Part shown: positions 4,001 through 10,811 of the stretch, one piece after another
Layout: every line of letters begins with the position of its first letter
Position numbering within the stretch: position 1 is the stretch's first letter
DNA from: an uncultured Lachnospiraceae bacterium
Lineage (GTDB): Bacteria; Bacillota; Clostridia; Lachnospirales; Lachnospiraceae
Assembly: GCA_947173945.1 (NCBI GenBank)
Contig: CAMWGV010000016.1
Span: 1-46,150, forward strand
Reading direction: 5' to 3'
DNA: 46,150 bases
Program-made: the position numbers and the translations under genes
The notes under the pieces: model-generated
What the model was told of the DNA's origin: nothing
Database searches by the model: none
Seen by the model: the letters and a program-made list of their open reading frames with translations, nothing else

Positions 4001-4062
4001 CCATTGCTCGAAGTAATCAAAACATGATATATTATATTATTATTAGGAAAGAAGGGCATACT

Positions 4063-4299
4063 ATGAGATATAAAACAACAGGAACCTGCTCTGCCGCAAT
4101 AGACTTTAATATTGTTGACGGCAAATTAACCGATGTGAAATTTCTTGGGGGCTGTAATGGAAATACTCAGGGTATCAGTAAACTGGTTGAGGGAATGAAG
4201 GTTGAAGATGTTATAGCAAGGCTTGAGGGCATCAAATGTGGTACAAAAGGTACATCCTGTCCTGACCAGCTTGCAAAGGCACTCAAACAGACATTGTAG
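4063..4299 (+). CDS. TSCPD domain-containing protein (TIGR03905 family)
   Basis: 78 aa. The motif that names the family, TSCPD, is present close to the C-terminus (GTKGTSCPDQLAKAL), together with further conserved cysteines in TGTCS near residue 7, GGCNG near residue 30 and IKCGT. Related modules occur in the C-terminal region of some ribonucleotide reductases, where cysteines suggest metal binding or redox chemistry; the stand-alone protein has no settled function. I start at the ATG at 4063, preceded by AGAAGGG; an ATG 39 bp further upstream would add a poorly conserved hydrophobic stretch and lacks a ribosome-binding site. Only 11 bp separate it from murG, so the two are probably cotranscribed. 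Confidence 0.85.
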   Translation: MRYKTTGTCSAAIDFNIVDGKLTDVKFLGGCNGNTQGISKLVEGMKVEDVIARLEGIKCGTKGTSCPDQLAKALKQTL

Positions 4300-4310
4300 C
4301 GGAGGTATTT

Positions 4311-5375
4311 ATGAAAAGAATAATACTTACAGGCGGAGGCACCGCCGGTCATGTCACACCTAACATGGCTCTTATTCCTTTTCTTAAGGATAAAGGGTAT
4401 GACATACATTATATAGGCTCCTATGAGGGTATAGAAAAAAAGCTGATTGAGGATATCGGAATTCCATACCACGGCATATCCACAGGCAAGCTCAGAAGAT
4501 ACTTCGACTTAAAGAACCTATCCGACCCCTTCCGTGTTATCAAGGGATTTTCACAGGCGAAAGCTCTCATGAAAGAACTCACACCGGACGTGGTCTTCTC
4601 AAAGGGAGGCTTTGTTTCCGTTCCTGTAGTTCTTGCCGCCAGTTCAAAAAAGGTTCCATGTATTATACATGAATCAGATATGACACCGGGACTTGCAAAT
4701 AAGATTGCGATTCCAAAGGCAGACAAAATTTGTTGCAACTTTCCTGAAACTGTTGAGAAATTACCTGCGGGCAAAGCAGTTGTAACCGGCACTCCAATCA
4801 GAAGAGAGCTGTTTGAGGGTGATGCTGCTGCTGCCATGACATTTTGCGGCTTTACTGAGGTTCGTCCAACACTTCTTATTATAGGTGGAAGCTCTGGCAG
4901 CGTAAGGGTAAATGAAGCAATCTGGTCTTGTCTTGACAGCATACTTGAAACCTTTAATGTCATTCATCTATGTGGAAAAGGTAACCTTAACAATGATTAT
5001 ATTAACAAGAAAAATTACGTTCAATTTGAGTACATTAAACAGGAGCTTGCTAACCTGCTTGCTTTAGCTGATGTTGTTGTTTCACGTGCAGGTGCAAATG
5101 CAATATGTGAGCTTCTGTCGCTGAAAAAGCCAAGTGTCCTTATTCCACTTTCACTCGCAGCAAGCAGAGGTGACCAGATATTAAACGCGCAATCCTTTGA
5201 CAAGAGCGGCTACGCTAAGCTTCTCATGGAGGAGGATGTAAACGACACCTCATTACTTGAGGCTATTACCTATGTATACAAAAACAGGGATACTTATATT
5301 CGTGCTATGGAATGCAACACAAGGCATGATTCCATCACACTTATTATGAATATGATTGAAGAGCTTGCGAAATAA
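4311..5375 (+). CDS. murG: UDP-GlcNAc:lipid I N-acetylglucosaminyltransferase MurG
   Basis: 354 aa, the normal length for MurG. It transfers GlcNAc from UDP-GlcNAc to undecaprenyl-PP-MurNAc-pentapeptide, making lipid II on the inner face of the membrane. The two GT-B domains are visible: the glycine-rich loop LTGGGTAGHVTPN at residues 6-18, SKGGFVS at 97-103, ESDMTPG at 121-127, the second glycine loop GGSSGS at 192-197, SRAGANAICEL at 258-268 and RGDQ at 286-289, the last two lining the UDP-GlcNAc site. GGAGG precedes the ATG. It is located away from a division/cell-wall cluster, following a TSCPD gene, and ends at a strong bidirectional hairpin. Confidence 0.95.
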   Translation: MKRIILTGGGTAGHVTPNMALIPFLKDKGYDIHYIGSYEGIEKKLIEDIGIPYHGISTGKLRRYFDLKNLSDPFRVIKGFSQAKALMKELTPDVVFSKGGFVSVPVVLAASSKKVPCIIHESDMTPGLANKIAIPKADKICCNFPETVEKLPAGKAVVTGTPIRRELFEGDAAAAMTFCGFTEVRPTLLIIGGSSGSVRVNEAIWSCLDSILETFNVIHLCGKGNLNNDYINKKNYVQFEYIKQELANLLALADVVVSRAGANAICELLSLKKPSVLIPLSLAASRGDQILNAQSFDKSGYAKLLMEEDVNDTSLLEAITYVYKNRDTYIRAMECNTRHDSITLIMNMIEELAK

Positions 5376-5394
5376 GTTTATATTAATTTCAAGA

Positions 5395-5424
5395 AGAAAA
5401 GGCATCAACATGTATGCCTTTTCT
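5395..5424. terminator. Bidirectional terminator between murG and the kinase gene
   Basis: AGAAAAGGCAT and ATGCCTTTTCT form an 11-bp perfect stem with an 8-nt loop. It is followed by TTTTCT on the plus strand and by TTCTTCTT on the minus strand, fitting the convergent ends of murG (5375) and the histidine kinase (5429). Confidence 0.75.
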
Positions 5425-5428
5425 TTTT

Positions 5429-6880
5429 CTACATTTGAGTCCATGTTATAACAAATACATTGCTTCCGTTTTCACGCAGATATTTAATTTCTCCCCCATG
5501 TTTTTCCACAATTATTTTTGAAATGGCCAGCCCAAGGCCTGTACCGCCATCGCTTTTTCTTGTCTTATCCCCCCGCACAAAAGCTGAAAACATTTGACTG
5601 GCAAGAGCATCGTCAATGGCTTGTCCGTCATCCGTTACTTTTATGCAAATTTTTTTATCTTCTTTCTCACATGTGATTCCTATGGTGTTACCCATTTTAT
5701 TATATTTTGTGGCATTGGAAAGGAGATTTTCTATCACTCTTTCAAATAATTTCACATCTATATCAGCCATGATTTTTTCTTCTGGAATCGCAATGTGAAA
5801 ATCAAAACCTGCGCTTTCAATTTCATCATAATTTTCTGCACAAATCTTTCTTAGGAATTCACCGATGTCCACTTTTTCTATATTCAGGTTATAGTCCGGA
5901 TTATCCATTTTCAGCATAAAAAACATTTCTTCTATCAGCATTTGCACCCTGTCTGCTTTTACATCAATGGTATGATGATATGCCTCTTGCTTTTCTTCTG
6001 GGACCAGCCCTGCTTCTAATGCATTGGCATAGCTTTTTATTGTCGCAATCGGGGTTTTTATATCATGAGAAAGCTCAAGGAGCATCTGGTTTTTCTGTGC
6101 AACCAATTTTGTATTTTCCTCTTTTTGACGTTCCAGCTCTTTTGTCATCATATTAAAAGTATCTACGATTTGCTCAAATTCTGCTTCCGTTTTTATATCA
6201 AGTATCACACCGTTTTCTCCGGAACGAATTCTTTCCATTCCTTTTACCAGCTTATCCAGGGGATACTTGATTTTTCTTCGCAAATAGAGACTAAATAACA
6301 GCACTTCAATAAGCAGCAGCCCCAAAAAAAGTACAGAAAAATGGTTGCTTTCATTATATGCCACAGAATTACTGTCTCCATTGAAGACAACCGTTATCCG
6401 AGCCTGCATGACATTTCTGCTGTAGATACACAAAAAATATTTATCCGTATTTTTTGCCTTGTAAATGAAGCCTATGTATTCTTCCTTTTTATCTGTAGTA
6501 CCAACGGTAAATTCTATAGAATTAGAATTTTGTTTCTGTATTTCTTTCACGGCAATCAGATCATAAATATCTTCCGGGGTATATTTTTGTGTATCCGTTT
6601 TCTTTTCTCCATAAACTTTTATAATATGATAATCGGAGTCCAGCTCTTCTACCCAGCCGCCAAGGCGTTTTACAGAATCTATATTTTTCACATTGCCATC
6701 ATCATCAACAATATCATATGGCATAAGGTTATCTATCTTCCCTCTGCCAATCAGAAATCCCTCAAGAAGGAGACACGCTGCAAAAGTGAGAATGACAATA
6801 AATAAAAATAAAAGAAAACTTCCGACTAGTTTTGTAAAAATTCTCTTTTTTAACTGTCCTTTTTTAATAGAAAATCCCAT
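5429..6880 (-). CDS. Membrane sensor histidine kinase of the ABC/HExxH operon
   Basis: About 483 aa. Order of parts: transmembrane helix (18-44), an extracytoplasmic sensor region of about 135 residues, a second helix (181-201), HAMP linker, HisKA domain with the phospho-accepting His at about 272 in LSHDIKTP, and an ATPase domain with N-box ENLLSN (383-388) and G2 box GGTGLGLAI (444-452). The G1 box reads DDGQAID, where DxGxGI is usual, so one glycine is replaced. I start at 6880 because AAGGA lies 9 nt before it; an ATG at 6889 overlaps the regulator's stop (ATGA) but its ribosome-binding site would be too close. It is the last gene of a five-gene unit and should phosphorylate the adjacent regulator. 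Confidence 0.9.
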   Translation of the reverse strand: MGFSIKKGQLKKRIFTKLVGSFLLFLFIVILTFAACLLLEGFLIGRGKIDNLMPYDIVDDDGNVKNIDSVKRLGGWVEELDSDYHIIKVYGEKKTDTQKYTPEDIYDLIAVKEIQKQNSNSIEFTVGTTDKKEEYIGFIYKAKNTDKYFLCIYSRNVMQARITVVFNGDSNSVAYNESNHFSVLFLGLLLIEVLLFSLYLRRKIKYPLDKLVKGMERIRSGENGVILDIKTEAEFEQIVDTFNMMTKELERQKEENTKLVAQKNQMLLELSHDIKTPIATIKSYANALEAGLVPEEKQEAYHHTIDVKADRVQMLIEEMFFMLKMDNPDYNLNIEKVDIGEFLRKICAENYDEIESAGFDFHIAIPEEKIMADIDVKLFERVIENLLSNATKYNKMGNTIGITCEKEDKKICIKVTDDGQAIDDALASQMFSAFVRGDKTRKSDGGTGLGLAISKIIVEKHGGEIKYLRENGSNVFVITWTQM

Positions 6881-6885
6881 TGTCT

Positions 6886-7581
6886 TCATTCCTTTTCAAT
6901 TTTGTATCCAAGACCCTTAATTGTGGTAAGAATCTTTGGTGCTTTGGGATTGTCTTCAATTTTCGCCCGCAAATTACCGACATGTACCATAACTGTATTA
7001 TCGTCTGCTACATAATCCTCATTCCATACATAGTCAAAGATTTGTTGTTTCGTAAAGATTCTTCCCTGATTTTTCATAAGCAGTTCCAAAATCAAAAATT
7101 CTTTGGGGGTCAGTTCGAGCTTTTTCCCTCTTTTTTCTGCAATTCCTTCTTCTCTATTTAGTGTAATATCAAAGCATTTCAATACGGGAGTCTGGATTTC
7201 ACTTTCTTCTTGATAAGCATAATTCCTGCGAAGCTGTGCTTTGATTCTTGCAACTACTACCATTGGATTATATGGTTTTGTAATATAATCATCAGCTCCC
7301 AGTTCCAGTCCCAAAATCTTATCATAATCTTCCCCTCTTGCTGTCAGCATAATCGCAGGCACTTTGCTTTCCTCGCGTATTTTTTTCAGCACAGAAAATC
7401 CATCCAGAACAGGCATCATAATATCTAACATTACCAGATGCGGTCGTTCTTTCTCAAACAATTCCAATGCCTCTGCCCCATCGTATGCTTTGATAAGCTT
7501 TATGTTCTCCAGCTCTGTATATAACTCCAGGGCATCAAGCAACTCTATTTCGTCATCCGCTACCAAGACTTTATATTCCAT
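6886..7581 (-). CDS. OmpR/PhoB-family response regulator
   Basis: 231 aa. Receiver domain with the acidic pair at residues 9-10 (VADDE), phospho-acceptor Asp53 in VMLDIMMP, Thr80 and Lys102 (TKP); a winged-helix DNA-binding domain follows from about 130 with the usual NQGRIFTKQQIFDYVW and GLGYKIE elements. AGAGGTGG precedes the ATG. The gene lies 12 bp after the HExxH gene and touches the kinase gene, so all belong to one operon. Regulators of this type bind direct repeats spaced by 11 bp; exactly such repeats occur in front of the first gene of this operon (10087-10107), suggesting self-control. The signal is unknown. Confidence 0.95.
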   Translation of the reverse strand: MEYKVLVADDEIELLDALELYTELENIKLIKAYDGAEALELFEKERPHLVMLDIMMPVLDGFSVLKKIREESKVPAIMLTARGEDYDKILGLELGADDYITKPYNPMVVVARIKAQLRRNYAYQEESEIQTPVLKCFDITLNREEGIAEKRGKKLELTPKEFLILELLMKNQGRIFTKQQIFDYVWNEDYVADDNTVMVHVGNLRAKIEDNPKAPKILTTIKGLGYKIEKE

Positions 7582-7593
7582 TTTCCACCTCTT

Positions 7594-8559
7594 TTATATC
7601 CCCAATTTTTTATAAATAATATTAATAAGTGGCTGAGAAAAATCATAGCTTGCTTTCCATGTACTGTCAAGGTTATCAAGAATCATACATTGTGCCATGC
7701 CGCTATAATAATATTTAGAAGAACCCTTGATATACGAATTAATATTTTCCATGTAATAGCTTTCAAATCTTTTCTTATCGAGATATTTACAGCACATAGC
7801 TTCTATGTAACATGCACTACCTTCCACGCTCGTATAAAAGTCTTCCAGTTTTTGTACCATTTCATCCAACAGAGCATTTCTTTTTTCCTGAATATCTTTA
7901 TATTGCAACATAAGCCTTCTGATTTCTTCTTTATCATTTTGCGTGGTTGCTTTTTTTAACAATTCTGTCCCCTCTTTATATAGGGCAGCTACCTTATCAT
8001 TTTCATCACATTCTTTGACAATCAGCTCTTCTCCATAGTCTTCCTCATCAAAGTCATGCCCTCCATTTAGTTCGGAAATGTTATCTTCAAAATTGTCGAA
8101 CTGCCAGCAATGGAAGCCTTCATGCCAGATTGTTGCAACCTGCTCACTTTGATTATATCCTGAATCACCTGCTACTGCCGTTTCCATACCACCTGCAACA
8201 CCCATGAAGCTTGACATTAGCTCTTTTGTAGGTACGATCACTTCATAATGATCATTTACCTCATATGCAGTGGCCGCAAAGGTATCCAGTACAGGTTTTC
8301 TTTTCTGGATACAATAAGAGCTGCCAGAGGGTATCATAACATAATCATGCTTCCCATCACAAAAGGCAATCGGGTAATCCGTCAGTTTGAAATTCTTAAA
8401 ACCAATTTTATCTATATTTTCCTGTAGTTTGACGGCACTTTCGTAACATTCTTTATCTTCGGCACTTAAGCTATAATTTCCAGTTAAAATGACACCAATA
8501 ACCAAAACAATACCAATGAGCAGGATAACTATTTTTTTCGCTATAATCATTTTTTTCAT
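7594..8559 (-). CDS. Membrane-anchored putative zinc metallopeptidase (HExxH), unrecognised family
   Basis: 321 aa. An N-terminal helix (about residues 9-29) anchors or exports the protein; the rest should be outside the membrane. The segment ATIWHEGFHCWQ at 143-153 carries HEGFH (146-150), a perfect HExxH zinc-peptidase motif, and candidates for the third ligand are Glu247 or Glu253 in EGSACYIEA, about 100 residues on. A charged helical stretch (180-240) lies between. I do not recognise the family. The start is the ATG at 8559, with AGAGGT 6 nt before it; TTG at 8565 is the less likely alternative. It sits between an ABC permease and a two-component pair with almost no spacing, so a role in processing or sensing a transported peptide is plausible but inferred. 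Confidence 0.7.
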   Translation of the reverse strand: MKKMIIAKKIVILLIGIVLVIGVILTGNYSLSAEDKECYESAVKLQENIDKIGFKNFKLTDYPIAFCDGKHDYVMIPSGSSYCIQKRKPVLDTFAATAYEVNDHYEVIVPTKELMSSFMGVAGGMETAVAGDSGYNQSEQVATIWHEGFHCWQFDNFEDNISELNGGHDFDEEDYGEELIVKECDENDKVAALYKEGTELLKKATTQNDKEEIRRLMLQYKDIQEKRNALLDEMVQKLEDFYTSVEGSACYIEAMCCKYLDKKRFESYYMENINSYIKGSSKYYYSGMAQCMILDNLDSTWKASYDFSQPLINIIYKKLGI

Positions 8560-8561
8560 AA

Positions 8562-9317
8562 TCAAACCTCTTTTCTTCTAAATAATCCAAGTGCGATTAC
8601 AAATACATAAATCCAAAGTAAGCCTGTCAGCAGCAGATGTACATCTACCCTATTGTTGACAAGAAACTCTCCTGCCTGTCCCTGTATTCCATGAAGGTTT
8701 GGTACAATATGCAAAATCCCTTTTAACAATTTCCCGCCAAATCCTCCTACTATGCTGTTCAATAATTCCAGCAAGTTGTAAAAAACACCTGCAAGCACCA
8801 GGATTACGCTAAGGGTGCCCGCAACTATTTTAGGCAGGACTATACTGAGCCAGCTTGTCATTACACATACAAGAATCACACCAACAGCAGATATGAAAAA
8901 TGCCGGTAACAGCTTCCACATATCACCCCCATGGTTCTTTGCCGCCATAAATATCAAAAATGAAACAAATAAAATAAGCTCGGCCAGAAGGCTTGCCATA
9001 ATATTTGCCGCAGTAAGCCATGCATGATATGTTCTCTGACTCACCTCTCGTATCAAAACAAGATGGCTGGTTTTTCTCTCATATTCGTCGGGTATAGTGT
9101 TCAGGCTTAAAACCACTGCCATTACACAACTGATTGCATTAATAATATTCAGAAGAATAGGTGAAAGAAGTTTATAGTCCGTAATTTCTTCTCCATTTAT
9201 GGAAATGGTTCCTGTTCCGGTGCTAAAAAGTACAAGTATCAGAATCCCAAGAATACTAACAATATAAAACACTTTCTTTCGTATTTTTTCTTTTAATGCG
9301 GTTACTGCAATAATCAT
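8562..9317 (-). CDS. ABC-2 type transporter permease
   Basis: 251 aa with about six hydrophobic helices: near 18-33, 52-72, 98-125, 136-160, 165-190 and 225-245. The first loop (residues 34-50) contains GTGTISINGEEITDY and is probably extracytoplasmic. The topology matches ABC-2 permeases that export drugs, lipids or peptides. It overlaps the ATPase gene by 4 bp (ATGA) and its stop overlaps the region just before the HExxH gene start, so the genes are translationally coupled. No sequence feature reveals the substrate. GAGGAATGAGGGA precedes the ATG. Only one permease gene is present, so the transporter is probably a homodimer of this subunit plus two ATPases. Confidence 0.8.
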   Translation of the reverse strand: MIIAVTALKEKIRKKVFYIVSILGILILVLFSTGTGTISINGEEITDYKLLSPILLNIINAISCVMAVVLSLNTIPDEYERKTSHLVLIREVSQRTYHAWLTAANIMASLLAELILFVSFLIFMAAKNHGGDMWKLLPAFFISAVGVILVCVMTSWLSIVLPKIVAGTLSVILVLAGVFYNLLELLNSIVGGFGGKLLKGILHIVPNLHGIQGQAGEFLVNNRVDVHLLLTGLLWIYVFVIALGLFRRKEV

Positions 9318-9997
9318 TCCCTCATTCCTCCTATTCGCTCTATAAAAATATCCTGCAGGCTTTTTCCATAATGCTCTTCCTTTTTATCCCATGTGCCAAG
9401 GAGATTTCCATTTCCTATAATGATACCTCTATCACATACCTGCTCAATATCACTCAATATATGGGAATTCAAAATAATAGTTTTTCCTGCTTCTTTTAAC
9501 CTGCCAATTAATTTTATAATCTCAATTCTGCCCATCACATCCAATCCTGCCGTTGGTTCATCCAAAATAAGGAGATCCGGACTTCCTAACAATGCCTGTG
9601 CAAATGCCAGTCGTTGTAACATACCCTTTGAATAATTCTTAATCTTTGTCTTATCTTCCTCAAGCCCTACCGTATTCAAAAGCTTTGCAATTTCTTCCCC
9701 GCTTTCTTTTTTGGGTATTTTCTGAATATCTGCATAATAGGAAAGCACTTCACTTCCATTGAGAAACGGTGGAAAATACGGCGTATCGGGAGAATATCCG
9801 ATTTTTACACCATCATGCATTATAATTTCTCCGCCATCTTTTTTCGTAAGCCCCAGTATCATTTTAATGGTAGTCGTTTTCCCGGCACCATTACTGCCAA
9901 GCAAAGCGAAAACCTCACCGTTATTAATAGAAAAGCTAAGGTTGTTGACAACGCATTTTTTGCCATAAATTTTTTTTAAATTTTTACATTCCAGCAT
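9314..9997 (-). CDS. ABC transporter ATP-binding protein
   Basis: 227 aa. Complete nucleotide-binding subunit: Walker A GSNGAGKTT at 34-42, signature YSKGMLQRL at 122-130 (the usual LSGGQ is replaced by YSKGM, as in many ABC-2 export ATPases), Walker B LLILDEP at 142-148 and the switch His in LNSHILSD. GGGAGG lies 9 nt before the ATG. It is the first gene of the five-gene unit and is followed by its permease with an ATGA overlap. By similarity to the ABC-2 class it would power export or removal of a small molecule or peptide; the substrate cannot be read from the sequence. Confidence 0.93.
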   Translation of the reverse strand: MLECKNLKKIYGKKCVVNNLSFSINNGEVFALLGSNGAGKTTTIKMILGLTKKDGGEIIMHDGVKIGYSPDTPYFPPFLNGSEVLSYYADIQKIPKKESGEEIAKLLNTVGLEEDKTKIKNYSKGMLQRLAFAQALLGSPDLLILDEPTAGLDVMGRIEIIKLIGRLKEAGKTIILNSHILSDIEQVCDRGIIIGNGNLLGTWDKKEEHYGKSLQDIFIERIGGMRE

Positions 9998-10063
9998 GGG
10001 TTTAACCTCCCTGTAAAATTTCTTATCTCACTGTTACTTTCTTTACTGATATCATAAACACCC

Positions 10064-10107
10064 ATACTAAAGTTCCAATAAACGGAACCTAAAGATTACC
10101 TAAAGAT
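10064..10107 (-). promoter_or_regulatory. Putative response-regulator operator and promoter of the ABC/HExxH operon
   Basis: On the minus strand the 10-mer ATCTTTAGGT occurs twice, at 10107-10098 and 10096-10087, exactly 11 bp apart, the spacing used by PhoB/OmpR-type regulators. A partial third unit (ACTTTAG) falls 22 bp further on, in phase. The -10-like TAGTAT is at 10069-10064, 17 bp from the repeats, so the second repeat occupies the -35 position, as in activator-dependent promoters. The first gene of the operon, which encodes its own OmpR-type regulator, starts at 9997. Confidence 0.55.
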
Positions 10108-10127: not shown

Positions 10128-10177
10128 CAAAAAAATAAGGCCCTTCTATGATTTTTATTTTTCATAGAAGAACCCTT
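10128..10177 (-). terminator. Terminator of the HD-domain gene
   Basis: On the minus strand GGGTTCTTCTATGA pairs with TCATAGAAGGGCC across a short A/T loop, and TTATTTTTTTG follows directly. This is a good intrinsic terminator 44 bp past the HD-domain gene's stop and separates it from the ABC operon downstream. Confidence 0.85.
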
Positions 10178-10220: not shown

Positions 10221-10811
10221 CTAAAACAGTTCCTTCTCAAGCTGATAAATATAATTTTCTATCATCTGCATACGTTTCGTATACTCAGCTCTTGCCGTAT
10301 CTGTCTTACATCTTCTTATCTTTGGTTTGTTAATTCTATAAAAGTTTTTTATCCTATAGTATGCTTTCTTATACGTCGGATCATCCTCATTTGCGGTTGC
10401 CATAGCATCCCACAGTATTCCTACTGCACCCACTTCATCAAGCAGGTCGGCATCCATAACTATTTTACATTCAAGTGAAAGCTCCTTTTCTGTGTCTTTA
10501 TCAGAATGCATCATAATAATTTCGCCAACTTTTTTTATGATAACAGGGTCAACGCCAATACTGTCAAGATATTCAACTGCAAGCTCAGCTCCTACTTCAG
10601 CGTGAGGACGAGTTTCATCCCATCCTATATCATGCAACAAAGCAGCAAGAGCGATAACATCCAAATCGCCACCCAGCTTAGATTGGAGCTTTATAGCCCA
10701 TCTATATACTCTCATGGTATGTTCATAGCGACTTCTAAATGGATAATTTGGTGGCCTACCGTTTTCAGTGGTCATTTTTTTAACGTATTCTATTACCTCA
10801 GCGTAGTTCAT
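10221..10811 (-). CDS. HD-domain phosphohydrolase
   Basis: 196 aa. The HD superfamily metal ligands are in place: His31 (YEHTMRV), His60-Asp61 (LLHDIGWDE), His102 (MMHSDKD) and Asp120/Asp122 (VMDADLLDE). This arrangement resembles the YedJ-like group of small HD hydrolases, whose substrates are mostly unknown, with nucleotides or phosphate esters being likely. AAAGGGG precedes the ATG. It appears monocistronic, ending at the terminator at 10128-10177, with the SRP RNA gene upstream on the same strand ending about 110 bp before it. The catalytic class is clear from the motif; the substrate is not. Confidence 0.85.
   Translation of the reverse strand: MNYAEVIEYVKKMTTENGRPPNYPFRSRYEHTMRVYRWAIKLQSKLGGDLDVIALAALLHDIGWDETRPHAEVGAELAVEYLDSIGVDPVIIKKVGEIIMMHSDKDTEKELSLECKIVMDADLLDEVGAVGILWDAMATANEDDPTYKKAYYRIKNFYRINKPKIRRCKTDTARAEYTKRMQMIENYIYQLEKELF

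Follow-up and report, generated by a model that had tools for sequence, protein, structure and literature searches.

The window, a stretch of 46,150 nucleotides that makes up one whole contig of a 2.84-Mb genome, carries on its minus strand a five-gene operon. Read from the list of open reading frames, it encodes an ATPase, an ABC-2 permease, a membrane-anchored protein with an HExxH motif, an OmpR-type response regulator and a histidine kinase. We propose, at a probability of about one half, that these five genes constitute a defence module that is inducible and autoregulated and acts against membrane-active peptides. An attack outside the cell would be sensed by the kinase, and the phosphorylated regulator would occupy four half-sites, arranged head to tail over the -35 region, and turn on the operon to which it belongs and, it appears, nothing more. 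The ABC-2 transporter would extract the peptide from the membrane, and the metallopeptidase, anchored and of putative gluzincin type, would cut it at the outer face. The gene order, the conservation of catalytic-type residues, a natural gene fusion, the operator and its single place in each genome searched were all computed.

The genes of the operon are tightly coupled, as the initial annotation of this DNA had described: 4-base overlaps occur at three of the four junctions, and 12 bases separate the HExxH gene from the regulator gene (Table 1). Hairpins lie at both borders. The transcript of the upstream gene probably ends at the hairpin that precedes the operator, while the hairpin at the other border is common to the kinase gene and to a converging gene (4311-5375). 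Neither was listed by a simple terminator scan. The converging neighbours at 4024-5375, judged by eye, resemble a TSCPD-type protein and a MurG-like glycosyltransferase.

Table 1 Features of the five-gene operon and its borders in the window
Feature	Positions	Strand	Evidence or remark
ABC transporter ATPase, 227 aa	9314..9997	-	ABC_tran 98.7 bits (Pfam)
ABC-2 type permease, 251 aa	8562..9317	-	ABC2_membrane_2 30.0 bits against a cut-off of 27.2; six hydrophobic segments
Membrane-anchored HExxH protein	7594..8565	-	TTG start; ATG at 8559 possible
OmpR-family response regulator, 231 aa	6886..7581	-	Response_reg and Trans_reg_C (Pfam)
Sensor histidine kinase, 486 aa	5429..6889	-	HAMP, HisKA and HATPase_c (Pfam)
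Predicted regulator-binding array, four half-sites	10068..10107	-	24/24 positions; 0/200 shuffles
Predicted -10 box TATGAT	10051..10056	-	11 nt past the fourth half-site
Hairpin followed by T run	10137..10176	-	-19.3 kcal/mol, z -5.44; between the upstream gene (10221-10811) and the operator
Hairpin 3' of the kinase gene	5394..5425	both	z -4.07 (minus strand), -6.37 (plus strand)

The HExxH protein displays the sequence HEGFH at residues 148-152 if counted from the TTG at 8565, and at residues 146-150, as first annotated, if counted from the ATG at 8559. Retention of the His and Glu residues in homologues had been named as decisive for the system idea, and HExxH is kept in 36 of 36 proteins, which makes this otherwise weak motif credible. 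A downstream EGx(A/P) motif was recovered by pattern in 33 of these proteins and by eye in the remaining three. Residues H148, E149, H152, Q155, E248 and Y286 are invariant, with E248, the candidate third metal ligand, conserved in 15/15 aligned proteins and placed on a long helix in the predicted model; several rows of the alignment begin at a later start codon or frame start than the first one of the ORF. The profile search and structure prediction called for by the initial annotation yielded no catalogued family and an M1-like model: all Pfam and NCBIfam families stay below their cut-offs with this protein, and the predicted model resembles M1-type catalytic domains. Among Pfam models, the M1 model matched neither this protein nor 15 members of its family, S41 gave no match to the protein at E values up to 1, and Peptidase_M66 matched one of the 15 members (E 0.00062). 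The motif, its conservation and the predicted fold are the basis on which we ascribe putative peptidase activity to this protein, which would also bind zinc. By sequence, it appears to represent a peptidase family, predicted to be of gluzincin type, that is absent from Pfam and NCBIfam.

Relatives of the HExxH protein were searched in family, order, class and phylum samples and in a genome collection, and the surroundings of 35 of them were inspected. Related ATPase and permease genes adjoin 21 of the 35, and the full five-gene order, which is thus not unique to the window genome, occurs in 17, some of them cut or with broken frames (L019, L002, L021-L026, L032, L033, L034, L052, L053, L054, L055, L093 and L094). 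In L019 the kinase is cut by the end of the contig. The ATPase-permease-HExxH order of L020 and L103 is followed by the end of the contig after 59 and 668 bases, respectively, while that of L102 has no regulator or kinase within the 10.5 kb fetched. The ATPases (318-319 aa) and HExxH proteins (427-436 aa) of L102 (4858-7943) and L103 (669-3724) are longer. A further membrane protein of 456 aa, MATE-like by eye, is inserted between the HExxH gene and the regulator gene in L021 (7817-9187, genome G214). In L033 (4895-5843, genome G699) the HExxH frame is split into two overlapping ones, with the operator present and the transporter, regulator and kinase frames open. Meanwhile, in L053 (6614-8562), from the one-contig genome G981, the regulator and kinase frames are broken and those of the transporter and HExxH protein are open; this is either decay or sequencing error.

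Strong matches to the HExxH protein are rare, being found in 9 of 397 family genomes including that of the window (E 1e-39 or better), and the only further genome from that genus in this sample had none. This patchy distribution fits an accessory defence function but also other accessory functions. The remaining 14 relatives stand alone (L035, L056-L060, L096-L101, L104 and L105), with frames of 353-554 aa, and 11 of them display no clear N-terminal hydrophobic segment. These cousins may form a larger unnamed peptidase group, and since 14 of 35 stand alone, 11 of them with no clear anchor segment, peptide defence is not a trait of the HExxH family as a whole.

The link between peptidase and transporter postulated in the initial annotation gains support from synteny and from a natural fusion. 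A single permease gene lies between the ATPase and HExxH genes in the window and in the cassette loci, and in L095 permease, anchor and peptidase are fused into a single frame of 624 aa. This frame matches the permease profile at 28-273 (125 bits) and the HExxH profile at 288-621 (82 bits), and its residues 285-305 form a hydrophobic segment. It is immediately preceded by an ATPase frame, and the regulator and kinase genes are divergent. In the class-level samples (391 genomes for each of the two proteins, likely the same 391; identical search settings), the permease profile matched five genomes, exactly the five with strong HExxH matches, whereas in eight further genomes the HExxH matches were weak (E 2e-7 to 9e-5) and the permease was absent. 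As all five matched genomes had supplied sequences to the permease profile, the informative part of this result is the absence of the permease from the other genomes. The distance matrices of the HExxH protein, permease and kinase also agree (r 0.93-0.97, 0/2000 permutations) over 13 of the 22 cassette loci, with kinship ignored (no species-tree control). Such agreement is as expected for a module inherited together, and plain vertical descent would give the same.

The transporter displays the features of the ABC-2 type, an ABC_tran ATPase and an ABC2_membrane match in Pfam. Among 17 permeases scanned at E <=0.001, ABC2_membrane_2 was matched by six, ABC2_membrane_3 by two and ABC2_membrane_4 by one. 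The best NCBIfam model of the ATPase is TIGR03740, lantibiotic protection, at 163.3 bits and below its cut-off of 309.75; that of the regulator is of VanR type, at 244.1 bits and below its cut-off of 350. The kinase has hydrophobic segments at 15-50 and 181-205, and the approximately 130 residues between them form an extracellular domain. The model of this sensor part is weak, with best matches that are Cache/PAS-like. The Cache fold often binds small molecules.

The promoter region of the operon provided insights into its regulation. The sequence ATCTTTAGGT occurs there in two copies 11 bp apart, at 10107-10087. These direct repeats, reported in the initial annotation, are real, but the array is larger than described, comprising four half-sites plus a -10 box. 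The repeats are the first half of the site CTTWAGGT-N3-CTTWAGGT-N4-TTTA-N7-TTTA upstream of the ATPase gene, and in the window the half-sites read, in 11-bp steps, ATCTTTAGGTA ATCTTTAGGTT CCGTTTATTGG AACTTTA. Its full score was never reached by 200 dinucleotide shuffles of the 300 upstream bases, indicating that the window operator is not due to chance. The array is kept upstream of homologues, another of the checks proposed at the outset: 12 of 17 loci score 21-24 of 24, with none of 200 shuffles equal and no equal second place in the locus. The operator is less sure in the five distant loci L054, L053, L052, L034 and L055, because they score only 16-18 of 24, with 0, 2, 3, 11 and 49 of 200 shuffles as good and 1, 2, 4, 4 and 6 equally good places within the locus, respectively. 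All 16 promoters counted (L055, whose register is unclear, was left out) have a TANNNT sequence that starts exactly 11 nt past the fourth half-site, against 0-2 promoters at each of 13 other offsets tested. As for loci inspected later by eye, L094 keeps this spacing and L093 is off by one base. The consensus and the 11-nt offset were taken from the sequences themselves before scoring, so the shuffles gauge strength and not discovery; for L002 and L033 a later start codon or frame start than the first one of the ORF was used, and L095, L102 and L103 were left out of the scoring.

With up to three mismatches allowed (<=3), the full site occurs at one place in each of 11 genomes, preceding the five-gene operon; the reversed site, used as a control, had a single match in each of three of them, and not all of the 11 assemblies are complete. 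It is found once in the window genome, the other hit being the same array shifted by one 11-bp step. A shorter pattern of 27 bases gave, in the same genome, one perfect match, the out-of-register hit and one match with three mismatches on another contig, against two matches for its control. A promoter scan placed TTGGAA-16-TATGAT (9 of 12) at the window -10, in a scan that overall did not exceed shuffles (36 vs 30.8, sd 5.7). The operon is preceded by a direct-repeat operator that its own regulator is predicted to bind, a feature of OmpR-type autoregulated operons. The predicted self-activation by the regulator, suspected from the start, has good support in the conservation of the operator and of its register with the -10 box. 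By analogy with OmpR-family biology, a regulator seated on an array beside the -10 box should activate and not repress.

Because the sensor pair appears to control its own operon alone, the products of this operon are suggested to deal with the signal itself. We infer that the substrate is a peptide, as well as its degradation, maturation or sensing and the direction of its transport. Extrusion and destruction are the simplest reading, since the ATPase is nearest to lantibiotic-protection models (below cut-off) and the peptidase is anchored at the outer face. In the portion of PMC8003753 consulted, a transporter and two-component pair of Corynebacterium raised nisin resistance two-fold over the empty vector, and the operon together with its S41 peptidase raised it four-fold. 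According to the same portion, nisin did not induce that operon, which by analogy would count against the defence reading, as would the weakly matched Cache-like sensor of the present kinase. The peptide in question is very improbably one made by the strain itself. LanC-like genes are found in two of 17 cassette genomes (G349 and G1324), on contigs other than that of the cassette in both cases, and are absent from 15 of 17, including the genome of the window; self-immunity to a lantibiotic is therefore not the general case.

How closely the two effectors cooperate bears on the mechanism. In the nsr system, transporter and peptidase are taken to work side by side. Here, it is possible, if tentative, that a peptide pulled from the membrane passes straight to a gluzincin that is fused with the permease or docked onto it. 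Extraction and destruction would then take place in one ATP-driven step, by a machine distinct from nsr. The fusion in L095 also agrees with another mechanism, in which no peptide is moved and ATP hydrolysis by the ABC-2 transporter opens or positions the attached peptidase, whose target would be an envelope protein or peptide. FtsEX acts in this way on cell-wall hydrolases, and NosFY on NosD. The permease is ABC2_membrane_2-like and, of the bacterial proteins among the listed solved relatives of the ATPase, NosF (130 bits) scores best, but ABC-A lipid transporters outscore it (up to 185 bits) and the best NCBIfam model of the ATPase is that of lantibiotic protection, leaving this mechanism unlikely.

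A transporter, a peptidase and a two-component pair are also the usual parts of peptide signalling, and this operon matches the list. The peptidase would then trim a secreted peptide, the transporter would export it and the kinase would sense it. Such a role is improbable: no precursor gene is seen in the operon, in line with the initial annotation, the ATPase is devoid of a C39 leader-peptidase domain (Pfam), and the operator stands at one place per genome, so that no separate precursor-peptide gene carries it in the 11 genomes. We also consider it improbable that the HExxH protein serves mainly in sensing, cleaving or presenting a ligand or cleaving the kinase, with the transporter as sole effector. 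Its gene lies between those of the transporter and the regulator in the five-gene loci, and its distance matrix correlates with that of the kinase (r 0.934, 13 loci), although this correlation is equally expected from vertical descent. Against this role, the fusion in L095 joins the peptidase to the permease and not to the kinase, and L102 retains ATPase, permease and peptidase with no kinase pair in the fetched region; L103 and L020 are uninformative on this point, as their contigs end.

As far as searched, the uncatalogued peptidase family is new, and so are its association with a small ABC-2 transporter and with a kinase that has an extracellular domain, the permease-peptidase fusion and the rigid four-step promoter. 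These findings connect a peptidase family with a transporter and with a sensor of its own, the natural fusion being a physical clue. If the defence reading is true, the module would account for part of the resistance of such bacteria to bacteriocins or host peptides. Its promoter, with its single target, could serve directly as a reporter to find the inducer and hence the substrate.

Compared with known systems, the HExxH protein may have the catalytic fold of M1 aminopeptidases, but family M1 was rejected by sequence, as no M1 model of Pfam matched. The protein has 323 aa and an N-terminal anchor, unlike M1, and 95 residues separate its second His from the Glu, whereas about 18 do so in M1 aminopeptidases. 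The BceAB-type pairing invoked in the initial annotation did not hold for either the permease or the kinase. In the partial descriptions consulted, BceAB-type permeases have about 650 aa, 10 helices and a large extracellular domain, against 251 aa and six hydrophobic segments here, and their kinases are intramembrane-sensing without an extracellular domain, against about 130 residues between the membrane segments here. The CprABC and LanFEG systems, as partially described, share some features with the module, with six-helix ABC-2 permeases of 238-252 aa and a kinase with an extracellular loop, and the best NCBIfam model of the ATPase is of that kind, at about half its cut-off. They were rejected on this ATPase score (163.3 vs 309.75 bits, TIGR03740) and on their two different permeases, against one permease gene here; the definition given for them includes no anchored peptidase, which is present here. 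In its head-to-tail half-sites and 11-bp period, the operator is similar to that of RR_1586 of C. difficile, a regulator that in vitro recognises an 11-nt TTAAG-type motif present as a direct repeat; it differs from the type, as excerpted, in its four half-sites, its fixed register to the -10 box and its one place per genome searched (PMC6222199).

The nsr operons of S. agalactiae (NSR, NsrFP and NsrRK) and Corynebacterium (nsr-like) combine, in the excerpts consulted, an anchored peptidase and a two-gene ABC transporter with an OmpR-type regulator and kinase in the same operon, as here (PMC5786555, PMC8003753). The window likewise has an anchored peptidase-like protein beside an ABC transporter and a two-component pair, and two of the Corynebacterium nsr-like transporters are described in such an excerpt as having no extracellular domain (PMC8003753). 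According to the same partial accounts, NSR is an S41 serine peptidase, NsrP has 651 aa, 10 membrane helices and an extracellular domain, and NsrK has 262 aa, whereas here we found an HExxH protein, a permease of 251 aa with six hydrophobic segments, and a kinase of 486 aa with an extracellular domain. Membership in NSR was rejected, with no S41 match and HExxH conserved instead. As tested defining features of BceAB, LanFEG/Cpr and NSR were absent here, the module was not filed under any of them. By analogy, the best reading is that it works like nsr, as its metallo-counterpart.
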